From positions 1 through 51,757 of the forward strand of contig ONUF01000011.1 of assembly GCA_900321005.1 (NCBI GenBank): a DNA stretch of 51,757 nt, in the 5' to 3' direction. Both the position numbers and the translations under genes were made by a program. Positions 19,722-42,197 of this stretch are shown in pieces. The number at the start of each line of letters is the position of its first letter. The stretch's first letter is position 1. This stretch comes from an uncultured Bacteroidales bacterium (GTDB taxonomy: Bacteria > Bacteroidota > Bacteroidia > Bacteroidales > Paludibacteraceae). The notes below the pieces were generated by a model that made no database searches, had not been told where the DNA came from, and saw nothing but the letters and a program-made list of their open reading frames with translations.

Positions 19722-22700
19722 ATGAAACTACATTTTAGAGTGTTCCGTACCATGATGCTTTCAGCCTTGCTCTTAGTGGGCATGGCTGCAGAGGCACGTG
19801 TGGTCAGCGGAACGGTAACAGACCCGACGGGCGAGACGATTATCTCAGCCTCCGTGGTTGTGAAGGGTACCACTATCGGTACAGTGACGGATTTCGACGG
19901 TAATTATACCCTCGATGTGCCGGATGACGCTAAGGTGCTTGTTTTCTCCTACATCGGTATGCAGACCCAGGAGTTGAACATTACCGGCGACGTAATGAAC
20001 GTGGTACTCCGCGAGAACAGCGAAGTGCTGGATGAGGTTGTTGTTACCGGTTATGGTACAACCAAGAAGCGCGACCTCGTTACCGCGGTTAGTTCCGTGA
20101 ACGCGGACCAGTTAAAGGACATCCCTGTTGCATCGGCCAGCGAAGCGCTGCAAGGTAAGTTAGCCGGTGTATCGGTAGTTACGACTGAGGGTAGCCCTGA
20201 TGCAGACGTGAAGATCCGAATTCGTGGAGGTACGTCTCTGACGCAGTCGAGTGACCCGCTCTATATCGTGGACGGATTCCAAGTAAGTTCTATTGCTGAT
20301 ATCTCCCCGGCGGATATTCAGTCGATGGACGTATTGAAAGACGCTGCGGCTACTGCTATCTACGGTGCACAAGGTGCAAACGGTGTTATCATCATCACAA
20401 CCAAAGATGCGGATAACAACATGGACGATAAGATGCAGTTCCATTTCGACTATACAGGTTATATGGGTTGGAAGCAGATGTCGAAGAAATACAACATGAT
20501 GAATGTGGACGATTTTATCCTGATGCAGTATGAGTACGCACAATATGCTGCTGGCGGCAAGGCGGCTTCAATACCGTCAAACTTCAACCAGTTTTTTGAT
20601 CCGCTCTATGTAGAGGATAAAACTCGGACAATGACTATTCCTCAAATTCAGGAGTATTGGCATACCCAGAAAGTGACGGACTGGCAAGACGAGACATTTG
20701 GTCATCATGGTCTAAATAGTAACCATAGTTTCACGTTGAGCGGCGGTAACAAAACGGCAAACTTCTCGCTGACCTACAACCGCGTGGATGACGAGGGAAT
20801 CATGTACGGTTCGGATTATAACCGTAATAACATCGCTTTTAAAGCGAAATTCAAACCGGTGAAAGACTTGACGTTGAGTTTTACCGCTCGTTTCTCGAAC
20901 ACCCAAGTGCTTGGTTCTGGTACAAATACTGCGCAAGATGCAGGATCTACGACAGAGAGCCGCGTGCGTAACGCTATTGCTTATTCGCCGATTGAGTTGT
21001 TCGCAAAAGATAACGTGCCGGGCCTCGAGGATTATGAATCTTTCGGATCTCTCTATGACCCGATTACGACGATTAACCATAACTATCGCAACAAGGTAGA
21101 TAACAAATACACCCTCCAGGGCTACCTGAGTTATAAGTTCGCAAAGATGTTTACCTTCAAGACTGAGTTGGGTTATGAAGGACGTTACATCAATCAGGAT
21201 CGTTTCTATGGTCCGACATCTTATTACTCGCGTATGGGAGAGGGTGTTACCTATGCCGGCGGCGCCGGTTACGGTCATGCCGTATCGACTTACGAAAAGG
21301 ATAGCCGTTTCAAGAATACCAATACCTTGGAGTTCAAGAAAAACTGGAAAAACGAGCACGACCTCAGTATTTTGGTCGGTGAAGAGTTGCAAATAATGAA
21401 GGGCGAATTGCGTACGACCAGGGCATTCGGTTTCGATAAGAGTATGACGGGCCCGCAGGTATTTAACTATCTCGGTTTAGCCAAGGCTTATACGGCAAAT
21501 TCGTATGTTAACCCGACGGATAACATGCTGTCGTTCTTCGCTCGTGCGAACTATATTCTCTTCAATCGCTACTACATCACGGCTACGTTCCGTGCTGATG
21601 CTTCTACGCGTTTCGCGAAAGGCAACCAATGGGGCTTCTTCCCCTCGGCAGCCGTTGCTTGGCGTATTATCGACGAGCAGTGGATGGAACCGGCACAAGA
21701 CGTGATGTCTAACTTTAAGCTCCGCCTCTCGTACGGTTCGGTAGGTAACAACAATGTGGATTTGGGTTATCTTCGTTCGGAGTATCTGGCATCGTCGGCA
21801 GCATATAGCGGACTCTTTGATACAAAGATGACAGATGGCGGTGCGGATGTTATTGCGGCGAATAACAAACTTCGCTGGGAGACGACCATCACCCGTGACC
21901 TCGGTATCGACTACGGTTTCTTCAACGAGCGTCTTTCCGGTACCATTGATCTCTATTGGAATACGACCAAGGACCTGATTCTCAAGTATTCGTTGGGCGG
22001 TCTGGGCGGTTATAACTACCAATACCGCAACATCGGTTCGACGGATAATAAGGGTGTCGAGTTCTCGGTCACCGGCGTGATTCTGGATCATAAGGCAAAG
22101 GACTTGAATTATGGCTTGAGCGTGAACTTCAATATCGCGCATAATCACAACAAAGTGGTTGACCTCGGTGGTATGGATGTATACCCCGTAGCCTCGCGTT
22201 GCTTCTCAGGAAACTACGTCAACGCGGATTATGAGTATCTGATTACTCCGGGTTCGAAAGTAGGTGACATCTGGGGTTATGAGACAGACGGTTGGTACAC
22301 TACGGAAGATTTTGCATCGTATAATCCGGCTAACAACCGTTGGTACGATGCGAACGGCAAAGCCATAAGTACCATTCTTGGTTATGCCCAACCGGGTATG
22401 GTGAAACTCGTGGATCGGACCGGTGACGGAAAGGTTGACGATAAAGACCGCAAGGTGTTGGGGAACACGCAAGCGTTGGTACAAGGCGGTTTCGGCTTGA
22501 GTTTCTATATCGGCGGTGAGAAATGGGGTAAGGTGGACCTCAATGCGCAGTTCACGTATAGCGCAGGAAACAAGGTGCTGAACCTTTCTGCGTTGGACTA
22601 CGGAAACGTCACCGACAAATCGAAACTGCGTAATATTACCGCAGACATGGCATACGGTTCTCGTTACTCGCTCTTCACCCAAGAGGGCGGATTTGTCCCG

Positions 22701-23102
22701 GATGGATATAAAGATAATCTAGATGCACAAGGCCGTATAAGTGGTGATGACTATGCTGCCATGGCTGCTATGCTGGCGGCTATGAATGCCGGCGCAAGGA
22801 CGGCAAACCCGATTAGCGACAAGATTGCGTTGACCGACAAATACGTAGAGGATGGTTCGTTCCTGCGTTTGTCTTCGCTGACTATCGGTTACTCTCTCCC
22901 GGAGGTATGGCTGAAGAAAGCGTACATCAAGACGGCTCGTATCTTCTTCTCCGGTTCGAACCTCTTCTGTGCAACGAAGTACTCGGGTGCGGATCCTGAA
23001 GTAGATACTCGCTTGAAGATCAACCCGTTGGCGACCGGCGTGGACTTCTCGGCGTTCCCGAAGAGTTGTGCATTTAACTTCGGTCTTAACCTCTCGTTCT
23101 AA
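19722..23102 (+). CDS. SusC/RagA-type TonB-dependent receptor
   Basis: 1126 aa. Signal peptide 1-25, then a carboxypeptidase-regulatory-like domain (SGTVTDPTGETIISASVVVKG), a TonB-box-like stretch EVLDEVVVTGYGTTKKRDLVTAVS, plug domain about 115-245 (RIRGGTSLTQSSDPLYIVDGFQ), and a beta barrel ending SFAFNFGLNLSF-like at the C-terminus. It imports oligosaccharides across the outer membrane using TonB. The next gene is SusD-like, followed by a PL1 pectate lyase, so the substrate is probably pectin or pectic oligosaccharides. No regulator (HTCS or ECF sigma) lies in this window. Confidence 0.95.
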   Translation: MKLHFRVFRTMMLSALLLVGMAAEARVVSGTVTDPTGETIISASVVVKGTTIGTVTDFDGNYTLDVPDDAKVLVFSYIGMQTQELNITGDVMNVVLRENSEVLDEVVVTGYGTTKKRDLVTAVSSVNADQLKDIPVASASEALQGKLAGVSVVTTEGSPDADVKIRIRGGTSLTQSSDPLYIVDGFQVSSIADISPADIQSMDVLKDAAATAIYGAQGANGVIIITTKDADNNMDDKMQFHFDYTGYMGWKQMSKKYNMMNVDDFILMQYEYAQYAAGGKAASIPSNFNQFFDPLYVEDKTRTMTIPQIQEYWHTQKVTDWQDETFGHHGLNSNHSFTLSGGNKTANFSLTYNRVDDEGIMYGSDYNRNNIAFKAKFKPVKDLTLSFTARFSNTQVLGSGTNTAQDAGSTTESRVRNAIAYSPIELFAKDNVPGLEDYESFGSLYDPITTINHNYRNKVDNKYTLQGYLSYKFAKMFTFKTELGYEGRYINQDRFYGPTSYYSRMGEGVTYAGGAGYGHAVSTYEKDSRFKNTNTLEFKKNWKNEHDLSILVGEELQIMKGELRTTRAFGFDKSMTGPQVFNYLGLAKAYTANSYVNPTDNMLSFFARANYILFNRYYITATFRADASTRFAKGNQWGFFPSAAVAWRIIDEQWMEPAQDVMSNFKLRLSYGSVGNNNVDLGYLRSEYLASSAAYSGLFDTKMTDGGADVIAANNKLRWETTITRDLGIDYGFFNERLSGTIDLYWNTTKDLILKYSLGGLGGYNYQYRNIGSTDNKGVEFSVTGVILDHKAKDLNYGLSVNFNIAHNHNKVVDLGGMDVYPVASRCFSGNYVNADYEYLITPGSKVGDIWGYETDGWYTTEDFASYNPANNRWYDANGKAISTILGYAQPGMVKLVDRTGDGKVDDKDRKVLGNTQALVQGGFGLSFYIGGEKWGKVDLNAQFTYSAGNKVLNLSALDYGNVTDKSKLRNITADMAYGSRYSLFTQEGGFVPDGYKDNLDAQGRISGDDYAAMAAMLAAMNAGARTANPISDKIALTDKYVEDGSFLRLSSLTIGYSLPEVWLKKAYIKTARIFFSGSNLFCATKYSGADPEVDTRLKINPLATGVDFSAFPKSCAFNFGLNLSF

Positions 23103-23135
23103 TCACAGTCACAAAAATCTAACAACAGAAATAAT

Positions 23136-25076
23136 ATGAAAACGTATAAGTATATAGCAATCGCAGCAGTGGCTGTAGCATTTGCCGGCTGTGATTTCTT
23201 TGATTCGAAATCTCCCTCTGCGATGGATGGCGCTGCCGTCTTTTCCAACCCGGATAATGCGGAGTTGGTAATCGCCGGCGTGTATGAACAGTTCGGTCAA
23301 GATAAATCCTATCGTAACCGTCTCGCGTGCGGCTATATGAGCATGAATACCGATACCGAGCATGGTACCAAGAATTCGGGAAAGGCAGAATACAATATTT
23401 ATAGTATGTCGCTCGCAAACGGCGAACTATCTACCTCCACCGGTAAGGACCCGTGGGGCTATCTCAATGCGACCATTGAGAAATGCAACAATATCATTGA
23501 GGGTATTGAGGACTACGGCGACCTGAATGACGAGAAGATGCGCTATCTGCTTGGAGAGGCGCTTTTCCTGCGCTCATTCTGCTATCTCGATATGGTGAAA
23601 CTGTGGGGTGATGTACCCGCACGGTTTGTGTCCATTACGAAAGATCCGAAAGGATTAGAGATGCCGAAATCAGACCGTGTAAATGTACTCAAACAACTCC
23701 GTATAGACCTGAAACGAGCAGCTGAGTTGATGCCGTGGTCGAAGGACTGTCCGGGTACGGCGAAGAATACCACTTGCCGTCCGAGTAAAGCTGCGGCTTT
23801 GGCGCTATTAGCTCGCGTGGACCTGATGTATGCCGGTAAAGGCGTACGTCCTGCGACTTGGCAGGTTGGACCGGAATTCCTTACCGCAGAGAATGCCACA
23901 CTGCGCTCGGAACTGAATACAGAGGTGCTTTGGGCATGCTCGCAGATTCTCAATAACGGCGACGAGCAAAAGAAATTCCAAACAAATTACGAAGATATCT
24001 TCAAGAAAATTTGTGCCGATGTGACCGATTATTACAGTTCGGAGGTGTTCTGGGAGATCCCGTTTGCGGACGGCAGTCGTGGTCAGGTATTACAATATAA
24101 CTGCACCAAGATGAGCGATGCTGTTAGAGGATTAAAAAATAATGAAGGCGGTTCGAGCAACTCGGCTGTAGGTATCGTGCCGACGCTCTATTATGATTTC
24201 GAGGCTACCGATGTCCGTCGCGATGTGACGATGGCGCGTTATATCTGGATGTATGATGATGGCGCCGACTACAACTCCGACCCTGCGAATATTGCTCTTG
24301 CTTTTCCGGAGGTAGACGTGGACGGAGGAGAGAAATTCCTCTATCAGAAAGGCGTAATGATAAATAGCTGGTACGGCAACAAATACCGCGTAGAATGGAT
24401 GACTCGTAAGCGTTCCGGTAATGAAGATGGTATTAACTTCCCTGTTATTCGTTACGCCGACGTACTGTTGATGGCGGCGGAGGCATACATTGGCGGTATC
24501 GGCGGAGATATGCCGAGCGAGACCTATGGAATTGATGGAGCGGAGTGTTTCAATAAGGTTCGTACACGTGCGGGTGTAGGAACGAAAACGCTGAATATGG
24601 CCAATATCCAGGAAGAGCGCAAACTCGAGTTCACCGGCGAGTACATTCGCAAGTGGGACTTGATGAGATGGGGCATTTTGAAAGAGACATTGCTTGCTGC
24701 GCACTCACGTCTGGATGCAATGAACCTGCACGATGGCGAATTTGCTGGTCTTCGTGATACGATCTATATGAAGTATAAATTTGTCGGCGACGAATACAGT
24801 TATGAGCCCGGTATCAAAGGATATGTCATTGACTCCGTATATGGTTTGAATAAAGACGAGAGCGGAATTCCGCCGTATTATAGCAAAGCGAATGGATGGA
24901 TAAAGACCTGTATCTATCAGAGCAAATCCGGCCGTGTATTAGCTCCGGATAGCTATATGCTTTTCGATCGCGAATTCCCGCAGCGCCTCAACGGACGTCA
25001 ACTCTGGCCGATTTTCTCAGTGAATGTAGGTCAGTCGAACGGCGCGCTTTGGAACGACTACGACTACGTTAACTAA
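23136..25076 (+). CDS. SusD/RagB-type outer-membrane glycan-binding lipoprotein
   Basis: 646 aa. Lipobox FAGC near residues 16-19, then SusD fold: TPR-like helices from about 45, including the NCxRAYCYLDM-like stretch LRSFCYLDMVKLWGDVPARF, and the C-terminal RagB domain with FPVIRYADVLLMAAEAY and ERKLEFTGEYIRKWDLMRWG. It caps the SusC-like barrel and binds the sugar chain. It begins 33 bp after the SusC-like stop, as usual for such pairs, and the PL1 gene starts 6 bp after its stop. Confidence 0.94.
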   Translation: MKTYKYIAIAAVAVAFAGCDFFDSKSPSAMDGAAVFSNPDNAELVIAGVYEQFGQDKSYRNRLACGYMSMNTDTEHGTKNSGKAEYNIYSMSLANGELSTSTGKDPWGYLNATIEKCNNIIEGIEDYGDLNDEKMRYLLGEALFLRSFCYLDMVKLWGDVPARFVSITKDPKGLEMPKSDRVNVLKQLRIDLKRAAELMPWSKDCPGTAKNTTCRPSKAAALALLARVDLMYAGKGVRPATWQVGPEFLTAENATLRSELNTEVLWACSQILNNGDEQKKFQTNYEDIFKKICADVTDYYSSEVFWEIPFADGSRGQVLQYNCTKMSDAVRGLKNNEGGSSNSAVGIVPTLYYDFEATDVRRDVTMARYIWMYDDGADYNSDPANIALAFPEVDVDGGEKFLYQKGVMINSWYGNKYRVEWMTRKRSGNEDGINFPVIRYADVLLMAAEAYIGGIGGDMPSETYGIDGAECFNKVRTRAGVGTKTLNMANIQEERKLEFTGEYIRKWDLMRWGILKETLLAAHSRLDAMNLHDGEFAGLRDTIYMKYKFVGDEYSYEPGIKGYVIDSVYGLNKDESGIPPYYSKANGWIKTCIYQSKSGRVLAPDSYMLFDREFPQRLNGRQLWPIFSVNVGQSNGALWNDYDYVN

Positions 25077-25082
25077 TCGTAC

Positions 25083-26588
25083 ATGACGTATTGGAAACAC
25101 ATAGGACTCATTGCTTGCATAGCCTGCGGACTCGCAGGCTGCAAGCCGGGTGAGTCGCCTGATGTGCCAACTATCGATACGAATCCGGAATTGGTAGCGG
25201 CTTGCCATCATATTGAGGGCGGCGGTACCAAAATCACAGGCGGAGACGGCGGCACGGTTTATCGTGTGAGTCGTCTGGACGATGAGATAGATTCGATTAC
25301 AGGACGGCCCATGGCTGGTACGCTGCGGTATGCTATCAATCAGGTAGGCGCGCGTCGCGTGCTATTTACAGTTTCCGGTACAATTCATCTCAAGAGTGCG
25401 TTACGCATCAGCGCGGGGAATATTACAATAGATGGCCAATCTGCTCCAGGTGATGGTATCTGTCTTGCAGATTATCCGCTGATTATTGATGGAGCGAACA
25501 ATGTCATTGTACGTTTCCTGCGCGTTCGTTTGGGCGATGTTAGCAACACGGAGTACGATGCCGTGTCGGCGAATGATGCTACGGGCGTGGTGCTCGACCA
25601 TCTCAGTTGCTCGTGGTCTGTAGACGAATGTGTGAGTTGTTACGGCAATACGAATTTCACGATGCAGTATTGCATTGTTTCGGAGTCGCTCAAAATCTCC
25701 GTGCATGGCAAGGGAAGTCACGGTTACGGGGGGATTTGGGGCGGAACGAACGCTTCGTTCCATCATAACCTGCTCGCGCACCACGATAGTCGTACCCCGC
25801 GCTTCGACCATGACTACGTAAACTCCACGCATATAGGGCCGATTGACTTCGTCAATAATGTGGTCTATAACTGGGGAGGCAACTCTGCATACGGCGGTGA
25901 AGGTTCGACGAACGGCGCTGGTGGACGTCATATCAATTTTGTCAGCAACTACTACAAGCCGGGCAAGGCGACAAAAAATAGCGTGAAAGCTCGCTTGTTG
26001 AATCCGACTACAAAATGCGGTCCTACTGAGAAAGATCCACATGCCGGGTGTACGGGTAAACTTGGCGGTACTGTCGATCCCGGTAAGTTCTATTTAGCAA
26101 ACAATATCATGGATGGATCGTCGTCAGTGACCTTAGATAACTGGTCGGGCGTATATCCCGATGAGGCATCCAAGAAGGAACAATGCAAAGCAACCTCCCG
26201 TTGGATGGAAGGCTTGACGCCCCTTGTGAACGAGCAGACAGCAGAAGCGGCCTATGAGACGGTTCTGGCTAAAGCCGGTTGCTCGCTGCATCGCGATGCT
26301 GTCGATACGCGTATTATAGAAGAAGTTCGCACGGGCACGTACACGTACGAAGGCTCGAAAGGTTCGACGGGCGGATTGATTGATACGCAGTCGGATGTGG
26401 GCGGTTGGCCTGAACTGCAAACAGCAGCCCGAGAAACTGATACGGATTACGACGGAATACCGGATACGTGGGAGAAGAAAAACGGCTTGGATCCGAATAA
26501 TCCCTTAGACGCAAGGCAGATCACGTTGGTCACCGGACATACCAATTTAGATGTCTATCTAAACGATATTGTAGCGCATCTATATTGA
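25083..26588 (+). CDS. Pectate lyase family 1 lipoprotein
   Basis: 501 aa. Lipobox CGLAGC at about 15-20. PL1-type parallel beta-helix: LRYAINQVGARRVLFTVSGTIHL, NVIVRFLRVRLGDV, LDHLSCSWSVDECVS and HHDSRTPRFD (R-x-P-R, the catalytic arginine region in PL1). Near the C-terminus DTDYDGIPDTWEKKNGLDPNNP is a calcium-binding thrombospondin-3-like or dockerin-like motif. It cleaves polygalacturonate by beta-elimination on the cell surface. Starts 6 bp after the SusD-like stop, so it belongs to the same operon. Pectate specificity is a family inference. Confidence 0.88.
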   Translation: MTYWKHIGLIACIACGLAGCKPGESPDVPTIDTNPELVAACHHIEGGGTKITGGDGGTVYRVSRLDDEIDSITGRPMAGTLRYAINQVGARRVLFTVSGTIHLKSALRISAGNITIDGQSAPGDGICLADYPLIIDGANNVIVRFLRVRLGDVSNTEYDAVSANDATGVVLDHLSCSWSVDECVSCYGNTNFTMQYCIVSESLKISVHGKGSHGYGGIWGGTNASFHHNLLAHHDSRTPRFDHDYVNSTHIGPIDFVNNVVYNWGGNSAYGGEGSTNGAGGRHINFVSNYYKPGKATKNSVKARLLNPTTKCGPTEKDPHAGCTGKLGGTVDPGKFYLANNIMDGSSSVTLDNWSGVYPDEASKKEQCKATSRWMEGLTPLVNEQTAEAAYETVLAKAGCSLHRDAVDTRIIEEVRTGTYTYEGSKGSTGGLIDTQSDVGGWPELQTAARETDTDYDGIPDTWEKKNGLDPNNPLDARQITLVTGHTNLDVYLNDIVAHLY

Positions 26589-36788: not shown

Positions 36789-39700
36789 TTAGAACGGGTA
36801 ACCGATACCAAAGTTCACGCGGATGGCATCAAGCGCGGAGGGAATGTTGAAGTAGGTGTTGATCGGCTGTGTGGGGTCGGGTTTGCCGTCCTTGTCATAA
36901 CGGAAGGTTTGGTATGGCGCGTGGATACCAACGCCGATGTCGAGTCGGACAACGAGTCCGTCTATGTCAAGACGCAGGCCGGCGCCGGTACCGAGTGCAA
37001 TCTGTTTGGCAAACTCGGGGCTACTGAGGATGCCGTCATACAAAGGCTGGTTGGCGTGCAGATAGGAGAGGTACTCTTCATGACCGATTGCCTTGAAGAT
37101 GGCGTTGAACGAGTACCAGTTCCATACGTTACCGGCGTCCACGAAAGCGGCTCCGAAGAGTTTCCATACAATCGGGAAGCGGAACTCGAAATTCGCCTCC
37201 AGTTTGATGTCTCCGGCGTGGAAGAAACTCTGGTTGTATTTGGAGGAATAGAAGTTTCCGGGTCCGTATGCATATGGCGAAGCGGCACGCAGACTAAGCG
37301 GTCCTCCTGTATGGAAGGCTTCGGAGAGGGGTGCGAAAAGGGAGTTGCCAAGCGGGATATTCGCGCCGGCAAACAGGCGCGTAGCGATACAAATCTTATC
37401 CGTGAAATTGAACTTGTTGCGCAGTTCGAAGGTGAGTTTGACAAATTGGTTGAAGGTGATATTTCCCAAGGGTTTGTCCTTGTCGTTCCATTTATATCCG
37501 AAGAGGCAGTAAAGGGCGTTGATGAGGTTTCCGGACTCCTTCACGCCGAGGTCAAGGAAACTGTTCACGGCGCGCTTGGAGCGATAGTCATCATAGATGA
37601 AATGGTAGCTGATAGATGGCACAAACTCATCTCCTGCAATGACTTGAATCAGTTCCGGGTACTCGGCCGCTTTGCCCGTCAGACTGTCTGTCTCCGCTTT
37701 CATCTTCACTACCGAGAGCGAGAACGGCGTGAAAGCATGCGTGATATACGGGCTGTTGGCTGAGCGAATAAAATAGGAGAACGATCCGGAGATTTTATGT
37801 ACGCCGTACCCGCCGGCGATGTTCTCATACTGATAGCCGAGCATATACCGCGTGTCGCCCTCCGGGATATTGTCACCTGTCCAATGCAGGTATGGAAAGA
37901 CGAGCGAAGCGTTGAGACCGAGTTTGTAGGTGTCGGTCTTTCTCGGATCGCCCGGATGTCTGTTACGCAATGCCCAGTAATACGCGCCGTTGCCCTTGAG
38001 TGTAAAACTCTCGCCCTTGCCGAGCACGTTCTTGATGGTTGATTTGAGCGTCAGGTCCGGACCAATACTGTTGTTCGAGCGGTAGGCTACTCCGGCGTCG
38101 GCGGAGAGTCCGTAGGTACGTGTGATACTATCGCCGCGGAAGAGTTCTTGCCGACGCCAATCTTTGATGGCCCGCACGGCGAGACCGGACTTATAGAGTT
38201 CGCCTTCCAGCACGTTGTTATAGTCGCGTTGCGAGAAGAGACGCAGCGAGACACCTCCGTCTTTGGTTAACTTGTAGTCGGCGGTGAAATTGGTGAACAT
38301 ACCTTTGGCGTCGTTGAGCTCAGGGTTATCCGTGAGGGTTGAACCCAAGGTGATGCGCAGTTTGTCTTTGAAGAATGACTTGCTGATAGATATGTTCATG
38401 TCGTTGGTCTTGCCGGAAGCGTGCTCTGTCTGCCCGCTGCTGAAGTCAATGTCCACTACTTTGCCGAGTTTGGAATTGGCCATCGCCGCATTGATACGGC
38501 TGTTGATGATAGACGAGAGCGCATACCCGTTGCGTTGCGCCGCTACGTTGCTCTCACCTACATACATGCCTGTCGCTAACAAGGTGGCTGCCAGTCCCTC
38601 GCGCGTGCCCTCGTCGAGCGAAGCCAGTTCGCGTGTGATAGTCTCATCATCCGGGGCTTCAAGGAAGAAACCGATACTCTGCAGACCAATCGAATCAATC
38701 TCTCCGTTCACTCGCACGCCGGTGATGAAGTCCACGCGTCGTGTCTCTTCCCCTTCTGACTCAACATCTGCTTTTACTTTCTGCGAAGCAGAGACATGGA
38801 GTTGTGTATGGCCTACGGGTCCGTGGAAGGCGATATGACTTCCGGAATCCACATGGAACGGCATGATAGGGTATGCCTTGGGTGAGTAACGTACAAAGCC
38901 GTCATCTACGTTGATGCGTCCGCTGAGGGAGAGCGGGTCGGCTTCAGCCATGTGGTAATGAATACCGGCTGTGCCGTACGGCTTGACCTGCGCAAGGTTC
39001 TTCTTATCAATCTGGTACGTGATGTCCGTCACAGGCAACAGCGTTACATGGATGTCCGCTCTGATACTATCCATCGGACCGGAGACCTGACCGCGGATAT
39101 CCGTGGCTAACTTGCCATAGACGGGAATAGGACCGCCTTGTGGTAAGTTCACCGGCGCAAAACTGTCTGCAGCGAGCGTGATATTCAAGCGCATCTTATC
39201 AAGGTCGAGCCCGCCGGATAGCGCGATAAACGTGCTATCCGCTCCATAGATCGGCAGACCGTTCAGATTCATATGGTTATGAACCATGGTGATAGGTGTC
39301 TCGCCGAGACGGACCCCCACTTGGTAAGGCTTGTATTCCGCCGCTATGCCGCGCGGTTGTACCTCGGCGGAGATATCCGGCTTATGCGGCAGTCCGTCCA
39401 CCGAAGCGTTTGCTCGTACAGCTCCGCGAAGCTCTATGTCCGTGAGCGTCACGAAACTATTAATGAGAGCAAGCGGAATGTCCTCTGTATGAACGTCCGC
39501 GCGCAGCGCATTCGCAACCGTCTCCGAAGGAGACAGACGCAAGTCTATCGTATGGTCGCCCAAGGCTATATCCTCGTAGTACAGACTGTCAAGCGTCAGT
39601 TTTCCGTCGCCGTGCAGGCTGTTTCCCTTACGCATGATGTCCATACGGACTGCCGCGTCGGTACAAAGCCCTTCGAAATTCATCGCGCCGTCCGTGAGAC

Positions 39701-41357
39701 GGGTGTCGGCTGCGAGTGTCGCATTTGTGAGCCCTTCCGCCATACGAAGATCCAACGAAGCCTTCACTGCCGGCAGGTCGAGTTTGGTAAAGGCCAAAGT
39801 GACAGGCGAAAGAGAAAAACTCGTCCGGAGCGAGTCGAAACGAAGCGAGACGGCCACCTTTCGGAAATCCAAACCCGCACTGTCGATGATGGCTTGTATC
39901 GGACTGCCTTTTCGCAGCGTGACATCGGCCTTGATGGCCGGTATTTTCCAGCGGATCGTATCCAATACGGTGAGGTCCTCTAATGAAGTGAGTGCATGTA
40001 TAACCGCCGAGTCAGTCACTGTCTGAACGAGCGGCTGAATCTTATCTATCAAACTCATTAGCGGCATGGGCGAACGGATGTCTGCTTTCACGCCGGGCAT
40101 GGTAAGCGCGAGCGAAGTGACACTGTCGGTTGCACCCTTGAACGTGGTATGAGAGAGGTCATACGGACCGTAAATCGCTTCGTCGAGATGTGTTTCTACG
40201 CGCGATACCATAGGCCGTTTGGGGTTGACACCTCGTCCCTGAGCTTCGATGTCTCCGGCGAGAACGACCCGTGTGGAGTCCTGCAGGAAAGGCGAGAGGT
40301 TGACGCGCTCGATATGTACCGACGCATCGTAGATCTCATCGTCGATATCGTAACTCGCCCGCAGGTTCGCTTTGCTACCTTGATATTCCGCGTCACCGGT
40401 TACCTCTATACGCATCGTCGCGAGGTTCATCTCGGTCGCATAGAGGTCGGCTTTCGCGCCGATATCATCCGAACGAACATGCAGACCGTCCGAAGTGATC
40501 AGGTTGTTGTTCAGTAGCACGTTTGCATTGCCGTAAATCGTGTCTGCCGGTATGCGAACTTGATTCAAGCCGAAACAAAAACCACCTACATGCAATCGCC
40601 GTGCCTCATAGTGGTTGGCTCCTACATCGACCAGAGCCTCCGTGGATAAGTGACTAGTGCGAATGTCCAGATTCAACGGCGTCATCGCATAATGGATGTT
40701 CCGTAACTCGCCATCTGGTATGTCAAAGGCCAGTAGTAGCGGTGTTGTATCCAATGCCGCAGTATCCGGAGAAGAAGTGCTGCGCAGATCAATAGCTACA
40801 TCGGCATCATAGATGCGCAGCCCGTGCAGCGGGTATTTGCCTTTGGCAATAAGAATCTCCGGACTCGACACTTCCAAGTTGTTCACGATAGCATCGACAC
40901 CTACGGTCTCAATCAGACTATCCGAATGGAAGGTGGCTTGGTCGAGTCGGAGTCGCTCAACGATAATGGGAATAGATGTAAAATCCTGAATCCTGACTTC
41001 TGATGTCTGAAGGCTTCCTTTTAGTCTAAGTGCGCGCGTATAAATTAAGGTGTCTTGTCCGCGATGACCGACAAAGAGACTGTCGATAGCTACCTCTACA
41101 GGCAGATCCTCTTGCCCTCTGTAGGCGCGGTATAGTACCATCGGCGAATGATGGAAAGGCGAGAGGTATATGCCGCCCAAGTCAATGTCAAAATCCGTTT
41201 TTTCTTGGGCAATAGCGATGCCTTTATGCAGAATCTTTGTGCGAAGGGTAGGCGTATAAATCGCCGTTGCTACCGCAATCAGTAGCAACAGCACGATACC
41301 CGACACTACGCCAACGAGCGCAAGCGGAACCTTCCACCAAAGACTCTTTGGGCTCAC
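36789..41357 (-). CDS. TamB-like protein fused to an Omp85-type outer-membrane barrel
   Basis: 1522 aa. Membrane anchor helix at about 9-33, then a TamB/AsmA-like beta-helical region of about 1030 residues (repeated D/G-x-strand units such as IEVTGDAEYQGSKANLRASYD), ending in a TamB-like C-terminal block about 905-1068 (SSIINSRINAAMANSKLGKVVDIDFSS, then KDKLRITLGSTLTDNP, TNFTADYKLTKDGGVSLRLFSQRD). From about 1080 a barrel follows, with GGPLSLRAASPYAYGPG, GDIKLEANFEFRFPIVWKLFGAAFVDAGNVW and ALGTGAGLRLDIDGLVVRLDIGVGIHAPYQT, ending YPF: the signature of Bacteroidetes TamL/BamA barrels. No POTRA domains lie between. The start is GTG directly after the upstream stop. Expected role: lipid or protein traffic between the membranes. 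An in-frame 7-bp array lies at 40983-41010. Confidence 0.82.
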   Translation of the reverse strand: MSPKSLWWKVPLALVGVVSGIVLLLLIAVATAIYTPTLRTKILHKGIAIAQEKTDFDIDLGGIYLSPFHHSPMVLYRAYRGQEDLPVEVAIDSLFVGHRGQDTLIYTRALRLKGSLQTSEVRIQDFTSIPIIVERLRLDQATFHSDSLIETVGVDAIVNNLEVSSPEILIAKGKYPLHGLRIYDADVAIDLRSTSSPDTAALDTTPLLLAFDIPDGELRNIHYAMTPLNLDIRTSHLSTEALVDVGANHYEARRLHVGGFCFGLNQVRIPADTIYGNANVLLNNNLITSDGLHVRSDDIGAKADLYATEMNLATMRIEVTGDAEYQGSKANLRASYDIDDEIYDASVHIERVNLSPFLQDSTRVVLAGDIEAQGRGVNPKRPMVSRVETHLDEAIYGPYDLSHTTFKGATDSVTSLALTMPGVKADIRSPMPLMSLIDKIQPLVQTVTDSAVIHALTSLEDLTVLDTIRWKIPAIKADVTLRKGSPIQAIIDSAGLDFRKVAVSLRFDSLRTSFSLSPVTLAFTKLDLPAVKASLDLRMAEGLTNATLAADTRLTDGAMNFEGLCTDAAVRMDIMRKGNSLHGDGKLTLDSLYYEDIALGDHTIDLRLSPSETVANALRADVHTEDIPLALINSFVTLTDIELRGAVRANASVDGLPHKPDISAEVQPRGIAAEYKPYQVGVRLGETPITMVHNHMNLNGLPIYGADSTFIALSGGLDLDKMRLNITLAADSFAPVNLPQGGPIPVYGKLATDIRGQVSGPMDSIRADIHVTLLPVTDITYQIDKKNLAQVKPYGTAGIHYHMAEADPLSLSGRINVDDGFVRYSPKAYPIMPFHVDSGSHIAFHGPVGHTQLHVSASQKVKADVESEGEETRRVDFITGVRVNGEIDSIGLQSIGFFLEAPDDETITRELASLDEGTREGLAATLLATGMYVGESNVAAQRNGYALSSIINSRINAAMANSKLGKVVDIDFSSGQTEHASGKTNDMNISISKSFFKDKLRITLGSTLTDNPELNDAKGMFTNFTADYKLTKDGGVSLRLFSQRDYNNVLEGELYKSGLAVRAIKDWRRQELFRGDSITRTYGLSADAGVAYRSNNSIGPDLTLKSTIKNVLGKGESFTLKGNGAYYWALRNRHPGDPRKTDTYKLGLNASLVFPYLHWTGDNIPEGDTRYMLGYQYENIAGGYGVHKISGSFSYFIRSANSPYITHAFTPFSLSVVKMKAETDSLTGKAAEYPELIQVIAGDEFVPSISYHFIYDDYRSKRAVNSFLDLGVKESGNLINALYCLFGYKWNDKDKPLGNITFNQFVKLTFELRNKFNFTDKICIATRLFAGANIPLGNSLFAPLSEAFHTGGPLSLRAASPYAYGPGNFYSSKYNQSFFHAGDIKLEANFEFRFPIVWKLFGAAFVDAGNVWNWYSFNAIFKAIGHEEYLSYLHANQPLYDGILSSPEFAKQIALGTGAGLRLDIDGLVVRLDIGVGIHAPYQTFRYDKDGKPDPTQPINTYFNIPSALDAIRVNFGIGYPF
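40983..41010. repeat. 7-bp tandem array inside the TamB-like gene, 4 units
   Basis: Units ATCCTGA, ATCCTGA, CTTCTGA, TGTCTGA in frame, encoding part of SLQTSEVRIQDF. The NNNCTGA/NNNTCAG theme recurs at 47580-47614 and 29604-29638. Confidence 0.65.
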
Positions 41358-42197
41358 TTAGAAACTCTTCTGGATACCGAATTTCAGACCATACAGTCCG
41401 GGCGTAAACTGGTTTGCCAGCAAGTTACGCAATTTACCCGAGAAGATAATAATGTCATTGCTATACTCGTTGGGACCATTGGCGTACAAGCGGGTGGTTC
41501 CGCTGTAGCCGAAACTCATGATGGAGAAGAATACTTGGAATGTACTTCTCCGATTGAACTGGTAGGTGATCACCGGCGATACCTGTACGCCGTATGTCAC
41601 ACTATACTTGAGTCCGTCGAACTCGGTGTCTGTGACATCCCCTGTTACCACGCGCGGGAACTCCATTCCCGTATAGAGGTGCGCCTCCAGCCAGATACCT
41701 ACTTTGTCGTTAAACAGCGTCTTCAACCGGTAGCGCACATAAGGCGTTACAGACCACGAACCGTGCATCACGCGCAGGTCTTCCGTGAAGGTCTTTTCAT
41801 TCAGATTCGCATCCAAACCGGCACGCGAATAACTCGACCATATGTCTTGGAACGAACCTCCTACCCGCAAACCCAGATAGACACGCTCTTTCAGTTTCCA
41901 ACCTATCTCCGGCTCCAGGGCGATGGACCAACCGTTTTCCTTTGTGTTACGATTCGAGTCGTGATGCCAATAGATGTCAAAATTATATCCGTAGTACAAC
42001 TTCTGTTTCCACAGCGGAATGGGTTTCTCCGGCACTTCTGCGGACACACTGTCTGCCGGCGTTTGCGTCTCACCCACTACGGTCACTACACCGCCTACAC
42101 CTGTTGCCAGGGGGTCACTCTCGCTCTGGGCCGTCGCGGTGGTAACACTGAGTACCACTGCGGCAATCAATAAAGTAATCTTATGCATGTTTTTCAT
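41358..42197 (-). CDS. Outer-membrane beta-barrel protein, uncharacterised
   Basis: 279 aa. Signal peptide ends near TATAQ (about 24), then a Ser/Pro-rich linker and about 220 residues of alternating aromatic/polar strands (WSIALEPEIGWKLKERVYLGLRVGG, FQVFFSIMSFGYSG) ending in a final GLKFGIQKSF with C-terminal F, typical of an outer-membrane barrel. Family not identified. Start may be 42197 or the ATG at 42188. It overlaps the antiporter gene by 17 bp and its stop is directly followed by the GTG of the TamB-Omp85 gene, so the three are probably one operon. Confidence 0.7.
   Translation of the reverse strand: MKNMHKITLLIAAVVLSVTTATAQSESDPLATGVGGVVTVVGETQTPADSVSAEVPEKPIPLWKQKLYYGYNFDIYWHHDSNRNTKENGWSIALEPEIGWKLKERVYLGLRVGGSFQDIWSSYSRAGLDANLNEKTFTEDLRVMHGSWSVTPYVRYRLKTLFNDKVGIWLEAHLYTGMEFPRVVTGDVTDTEFDGLKYSVTYGVQVSPVITYQFNRRSTFQVFFSIMSFGYSGTTRLYANGPNEYSNDIIIFSGKLRNLLANQFTPGLYGLKFGIQKSF

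Follow-up and report, generated by a model that had tools for sequence, protein, structure and literature searches.

Can the TamB groove and the Omp85-type barrel of a TAM be made as one polypeptide and, if so, what would such a protein do in the envelope of its host? This question is raised by a 1522-aa open reading frame from an uncultured member of the Bacteroidales (Paludibacteraceae; GCA_900321005.1), located in a 51,757-nt stretch of DNA (ONUF01000011.1; hereafter, the window). The genome is 2.12 Mb in size and 78% complete, and the window is its contig C24. An earlier note, made from the sequence alone, had described the frame as an inner-membrane anchor and TamB-like body followed, from about residue 1080, by a TamL-type barrel lacking POTRA domains, and had proposed that it may act as a simplified bridge for lipid or protein transport.

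Architecture of the Fusion Gene

The frame is intact and free of stops, in agreement with the single chain that had been claimed. Its parts, and the gene directly upstream, are as follows:

36789..41357, minus strand: TamB-TamL fusion gene, 1522 aa, GTG start (Pfam and NCBIfam matches, no stops)
41196..41333, minus strand: residues 9-54, N-terminal helix, predicted inner-membrane signal anchor plus extension, hydrophobic at ~9-35 (model and alignment)
38658..41195, minus strand: residues 55-900, TamB/AsmA-like beta-groove (model strands, Foldseek, and Pfam TamB at 806-1045)
38160..38657, minus strand: residues 901-1066, TamB C-terminal domain, helices and then six beta-strands (alignment with six separate TamB2 C-termini, and DSSP; right-hand limit, 1066, taken from the alignment)
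38118..38159, minus strand: residues 1067-1080, join (limits from the alignment)
36792..38117, minus strand: residues 1081-1522, TamL-type Omp85 barrel without POTRA domains (loop motif GGPLSLRA; C-terminus ..IGYPF)
41358..42197, minus strand: small probable outer-membrane beta-barrel gene, 279 aa, directly upstream of the fusion

Profile searches place both domains in this one protein, rather than TamB or a barrel by itself. The TamB-like body is recognized by Pfam TamB (PF04357) at residues 806-1045 (E 1.2e-14, 54.8 bits vs. a cut-off of 22.4), and Pfam Omp85 (PF01103) matches residues 1303-1519 (E 2.9e-11, 43.9 bits vs. a cut-off of 24). The NCBIfam TamL profile (NF052279) aligns residues 1081-1522 with profile positions 335-747 of 747 (E 1.7e-88), and thus begins where the earlier note had placed the start of the barrel; its score of 297.9 bits is under the curated cut-off of 400, with the N-terminal part of the profile unmatched. 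The first ~335 positions of TamL, comprising the lipoprotein signal and the POTRA domains, have no counterpart in the fusion. The lack of POTRA domains is borne out by the Pfam search, which returned no POTRA match in the fusion up to E 1 and, with the same library, detected POTRA in all four separate proteins scanned (the genome's own TamL and three separate TamL2). The barrel itself has the 16 strands and the L6 arginine motif of a C-terminal Omp85 barrel, and the TamB half has no free, beta-signal-like C-terminus at beta6, where the chain continues into the barrel. A six-frame PF04357 search of the genome listed only its separate TamB and not the fusion, perhaps a loss in a loose first pass.

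Structure models are available for the two halves. The N-terminal model (m02416515c256, residues 2-560) is strand-rich, with a mean pLDDT of 83.2, and has a long helix at residues 9-54; a hydrophobic N-terminal stretch is conserved in the alignment of fusions, and the inner-membrane anchor is accordingly retained as a prediction. Foldseek searches with the groove model gave as best PDB match 9xdc_B ("TamAB hybrid barrel state", E 8.9e-5) and as second 9xdd_B ("TamAB in non-hybrid barrel state", E 5.3e-4), both with low TM-scores; from the model and these matches, the TamB half has a beta-taco groove. The C-terminal model (mdbff2ecb3655, residues 500-1522) is of moderate quality (mean pLDDT 72.7, pTM 0.47) and weak at the TamB strands and the last barrel strands, with pLDDT below 50 over most of residues 930-987 and 1009-1022. 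DSSP of this model gives six TamB strands (969-979, 982-995, 1000-1009, 1023-1029, 1036-1045, and 1054-1073), of which one shows amphipathic alternation at p < 0.05. When solved structures were searched by sequence, the C-terminal alignment gave only weak matches to BamA and TamA (E 0.31-0.74). The overall architecture, i.e., anchor, groove, TamB C-terminal domain, short join, and TamL2-type barrel, is well supported.

The Join and the Hybrid Barrel

Relative to six separate TamB2-TamL2 pairs, the fusion aligns with TamB2 through the last strand, beta6 (..YNNVLEGELYKSGLAVRA..), and with TamL2 from the first barrel strand, beta1 (..YGLSADAGVAYRSNNSIGP..); the TamB2 tail, the stop, and the signal and POTRA region of TamL2 are missing between them. 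By their order in the alignment, beta6 and beta1 are therefore sequence neighbors across the join, and only residues 1074-1075 separate the two strands in the model.

In the cryo-EM structure of the Escherichia coli TamAB complex, beta1 of TamA pairs with the last strand of TamB, whose C-terminal domain is composed of two helices and six strands (PMC12800296). As read from the alignment, the join of the fusion falls between exactly these two pairing strands. Disulfide pairs between TamA and TamB have been described at 267/1258 and 269/1256 (PMC12800296), and because these give equal sums, we read the register as antiparallel, with the last TamB residue opposite TamA residue ~266. This would put the TamB C-terminus beside the start of TamA strand 1, so that a short turn could link them, and a join at this position means that the fusion would fit the hybrid barrel with little strain. 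In E. coli, TamB strands 3-6 fold within the TamA lumen and TamA beta16 has no TamB contact (PMC12800296), making a 22-strand membrane barrel one of several possible arrangements. For Flavobacterium johnsoniae, TamL-TamB has been predicted as a 22-strand hybrid, in a model that sets TamB against the last TamL strand (PMC12045153).

The E. coli complex further has three interfaces between POTRA domains and TamB; deletion of POTRA 2 is lethal, and deletion of POTRA 1 or 3 is harmful (PMC12800296). Since the POTRA domains bind TamB in E. coli and yet are gone from the fusion, we infer that the covalent linkage may have taken over their docking role.

The join could instead be a processing site, the fusion being a precursor that is cut there to release a two-protein TAM without POTRA domains. 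Its length is variable, ranging from 11 to 26 residues among 81 sequences, as cleavage might allow, but it is exactly 14 residues in 68 of these; no signal peptide or lipobox was seen by eye at the join in ten aligned fusions, and a freed barrel would lack both a lipid anchor and the POTRA domains that hold TamB. We regard such processing as improbable.

Distribution and Conservation

Of 358 genomes in the family, 119 (the window's own included) carry the fusion; they are distributed over four of 33 genera (E ≤ 1e-40). Within the genus of the window, 57 of 90 genomes carry it (own genome not counted; best E below 1e-120), and it was not found in the other 33, many of which are incomplete; among same-genus genomes with completeness of 90% or more and contamination of 5% or less, the proportion is 21/34. 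A scan of contigs from named genomes retained 80 of 137 relatives, each matched from residue 1-47 to residue 1522. These are labeled Paludibacteraceae, Bacteroidales, or Bacteroidia and, where a source is stated, come from the guts of ruminants or other herbivores. Two length classes (short, 28/80; long, 52/80; L057-L136) are set apart by an insertion in the groove near residue ~404, and there are two copies in a few genomes: UBA1180 (L062 and L128, one short and one long), G166, and G246.

In two wider samples, no further fused form was listed. Among 80 family genomes from 24 other genera (sampled outside the window's genus by taking roughly one genome in two and omitting known carriers), 75 matched and no fused frame was listed. 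A phylum-wide draw of 395 genomes gave matches in 116 at E ≤ 1e-15; among the matches listed there was no independent fusion and, the window's genome aside, the barrel matches sit in separate frames of 751-913 aa.

No stop or frameshift occurs near residue 1070, the point at which the earlier note had allowed that its reading might fail. One frame crosses the join in all 80 named relatives and is full length in 78 (the join-spanning frame lacks the N-terminal end in L119 and the C-terminal end in L130); occasional copies are interrupted, by a contig end or by a stop or frame break (e.g., G024, G076, G089, and G194). Both halves are under purifying selection, with dN < dS on either side of the join in the eight pairs computed, although some of these are near-identical and uninformative; between the window's copy and L058, dN and dS are 0.12 and 0.88 for the TamB half and 0.028 and 0.633 for the barrel. 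A chimeric assembly, or a stop lost between adjacent tamB2 and tamL2 genes, might be entertained given that these genes overlap in six relatives, but a lost stop would have left the lipoprotein signal and POTRA domains in frame, and the absence of both argues against it. Together with the frame spanning the join in every named contig, the 119 carriers in four genera, and selection on both sides, this leaves a negligible chance of an assembly or frameshift artefact, which we reject.

Conservation also bears on what the barrel does. The mean majority-residue frequency is 0.846 in the barrel, 0.685 at residues 34-403, and 0.828 in the late groove (773-900), and only the helical stretch at 901-965 exceeds the barrel (0.898). 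It could be argued that the TamB groove works as a lipid bridge and that the fused barrel is simply a fixed docking point in the outer membrane, without insertase activity. The POTRA domains, TamB-binding in E. coli, are indeed missing, and the Dma anti-sigma factors (PMC13088901) show that an inner-membrane protein can carry a C-terminal barrel; these differ from the fusion in having a disordered tether and an anti-sigma domain, with no groove mentioned in the available description. However, the conservation of the barrel is greater than a passive anchor would appear to need, and the barrel keeps both the GG..S(L/M)R-type loop motif and the ..GYPF end; we therefore consider an anchoring role alone unlikely.

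Relation to TamB2-TamL2 Gene Pairs

Adjacent, overlapping tamB- and tamL-like genes occur at six further loci from Bacteroidales (L045-L050). We compared both halves of the fusion with such pairs, for which the names TamB2 and TamL2 rest on gene arrangement and on the published description (PMC12045153), the F. johnsoniae sequences themselves being outside the trees. In the barrel tree, 15 sampled fusions form one clade (SH-aLRT 100), sister (98) to 10 TamL2 encoded beside a TamB2. The other 14 of the 24 linked TamL2, among them those of the fusion's own family, lie away from the fusions, and the 26 unlinked or unknown sequences, including the genome's own TamL, are also placed elsewhere. In the TamB tree, the fusion half groups with six TamB2 (100), and 14 canonical TamBs, including the genome's own copy, form a separate clade (100); the remaining eight of 14 linked TamB2, including the family's own, fall on the far side with canonical TamB. 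Long fusion stems (1.53 and 2.52) call for caution, and the exact sister group is not firm. By these trees, the adjacent-gene pairs do not form one clade; they split into two or more groups, one of which the fusion joins.

The barrel loop motif provides a further comparison. Among the 15 fusions it reads RA in 12 and RS in 3; RAF occurs in 23 of the 24 linked TamL2 (L046 was missed by the search pattern) and in six further unlinked or unknown sequences. In the 20-member clade of the genome's own TamL, it is RGW in 17 (own TamL included) and RAW in one, with two missed by the pattern. The motif thus agrees with the trees in placing the fusion with an adjacent-gene TamB2-TamL2 pair, and this lineage is, from sequence comparison, well supported. 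Descent from the separate TamL2 of the fusion's own family (genus g77 type) is disfavored by a corrected AU test (p 0.011), in which the group was named after the tree had been seen; because of this choice and the long fusion branch, horizontal transfer is not claimed.

Other TAM and Omp85 Genes in the Same Genome

The genome encodes, in addition to the fusion, a separate TamB (1538 aa, contig C40), a separate TamL (726 aa, contig C38) with a lipobox-like N-terminus, and BamA (869 aa, contig C8). Its TamL matches NF052279 at 629.6 bits over nearly the full model (629.6-775.6 bits for this protein and two separate TamL2, likewise over nearly the full model) and is 29% identical to the fusion over part of the barrel. 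The same two families as in the fusion (NF052279 and PF04357) are hence also present as separate genes, and the fusion is an additional paralogue, an extra machine. If the "simplified" bridge of the earlier note is taken as a stripped-down TAM standing in for the cell's own, that reading must be given up: replacement is rejected for this genome, in which separate TamB and TamL are kept.

A fourth Omp85-family frame is found beside an RND efflux operon on contig C40 (L037 105-1244) and matches NF047779 at 194.1 bits, slightly under the cut-off of 200.

The Probable Small Barrel Gene Upstream

The stop codon of the 279-aa upstream gene touches the start codon of the fusion. Its product has a signal-peptide-like start and a C-terminal F; PF13568 (OMP_b-brl_2) matches weakly in six of 16 members of its family and not in the window's own copy, and a sequence search against solved structures gave nothing meaningful. 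With tblastn, 61 of the 80 named loci have a homologue (60 by profile), many of these loci being incomplete. Among genus-mates at least 90% complete (all such carriers, with 14 non-carriers from the same-genus scan and four from the family scan), it occurs in 19 of 22 fusion carriers vs. one of 18 non-carriers (Fisher p 4.1e-7, ignoring shared ancestry), and in carriers G007, G068, G082, and G090 the two genes are on different contigs. The link between small gene and fusion is strong but not absolute: carriers G012, G048, and G050 are without it, RND efflux genes take its place immediately before the fusion in G050 and G362, and G172 has the small gene (L200 1878-2951) with no fusion in the 9 kb fetched.

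These data allow the reading that the fusion is devoted to the assembly of a single client, the small barrel protein. The touching codons, the frequency of the homologue across loci, and its co-occurrence with the fusion, including in carriers with the genes on different contigs, are all in its favor; against it, the statistical test does not account for shared ancestry, both genes occur without each other in the genomes just named, and the small protein could equally be a subunit. We judge exclusive service to this one client somewhat unlikely, and treat the small protein as a candidate partner or substrate of the fusion.

Two further arrangements were observed. Directly upstream of the fusion in G362, a 1517-aa frame combines an AcrB-type RND pump with a TolC-like OEP domain (L204 1222-5775, plus strand; L203 2-3775, plus strand), and may reflect either a genuine fusion of pump and channel or the loss of a stop; in G050 (L201), the RND pump and OEP are two overlapping genes. 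Elsewhere in the window (19722-26588, plus strand), a pair comprising a TonB-dependent receptor and a SusD-like protein precedes a weak match to pectate lyase, in what is probably a polysaccharide-utilisation locus.

A Proposed Covalent Trans-Envelope Machine

We consider it fairly probable that the gene is a fusion of the second Bacteroidales TAM pair (TamB2 and TamL2) and works as a covalent, POTRA-independent, trans-envelope accessory machine. In separate TAMs, TamB beta6 would pair with barrel beta1 at the lateral gate while the POTRA domains hold TamB. With beta6 and beta1 as covalent neighbors, the hybrid state would become intramolecular, and the POTRA docking platform could be dispensed with, although the harm done by POTRA deletions in E. 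coli speaks against this. The anchor would sit in the inner membrane and the groove would cross the periplasm, with a barrel of 16 strands, plus up to six from TamB, in the outer membrane; the duct so made would have a fixed 1:1 stoichiometry. Most likely, the groove would conduct phospholipid to the outer membrane, the machine would handle a few outer-membrane proteins, or both, the small protein encoded upstream being a possible example of a narrow client set. The separate TamB, TamL, and BAM of the cell would remain in place, with the machine as an accessory.

Membrane insertion at both ends, the beta6-beta1 pairing, and the cargo are what we infer here, together with any closed 22-strand barrel. 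By analogy with known systems, the cargo is probably lipid, outer-membrane proteins, or both, and the bridge for lipid or protein transport suggested in the earlier note is plausible from homology. A point against lipid cargo is the judgment that F. johnsoniae TamL most probably has no part in lipid transport. Mutants of F. johnsoniae tamB2 or tamL2 have wild-type growth in two media, and both genes can be deleted together (PMC12045153); such dispensability is in line with the patchy distribution of the fusion.

A more specific form of this reading, which we put forward tentatively as a possibility, is a one-piece duct in which the six TamB strands and 16 TamL strands form a continuous 22-strand outer-membrane barrel on an inner-membrane-anchored lipid groove, locked in the hybrid-barrel state, POTRA-independent, and accompanied by its own small outer-membrane partner.

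Comparison With Known Systems and Significance

The nearest described system is the TamB2-TamL2 operon of F. johnsoniae (Fjoh_1899/Fjoh_1900), which, like the fusion, is present beside canonical TamB and TamL; it consists of two genes, with TamL2 a lipoprotein bearing three POTRA domains, whereas the fusion is one gene with neither feature (PMC12045153). E. coli TamAB (PDB 9xdc/9xdd) shares the TamB anchor, the groove, and the two-helix, six-strand C-terminal domain, but as described is non-covalent, has a second, non-hybrid state, and has three POTRA domains in contact with TamB (PMC12800296). In the BAM-TAM hybrid of Borrelia, six C-terminal TamB strands are likewise predicted to complete an Omp85 barrel via beta1, but the barrel is that of a BamA with five POTRA domains and the genes are separate (PMC13382580). 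Omp85 proteins without POTRA domains, as in the fusion barrel, have already been described ("noNterm"; PMC4104836). No TamB-Omp85 fusion appeared among the titles and abstract openings listed from the open-licence literature, and the words "fusion" and "fused" have no occurrences in the main texts of PMC12045153, PMC4494059, PMC12800296, and PMC13382580.

By gene-fusion logic, the gene ties TamB2 and TamL2 into one functional unit. It adds a second design, besides Dma, in which an inner-membrane helix and an outer-membrane barrel are on one chain, and it offers a single-chain TAM of fixed stoichiometry for structural work. With the pairing strands welded and the POTRA platform discarded, the role of the POTRA domains becomes directly testable, and the fusion is a natural test of whether the TamA/TamL-TamB hybrid barrel is a working or a passing state. 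If the 22-strand, one-piece duct were true, these gut Bacteroidales would possess an Omp85 machine locked in a state that E. coli TamAB enters only part-time.
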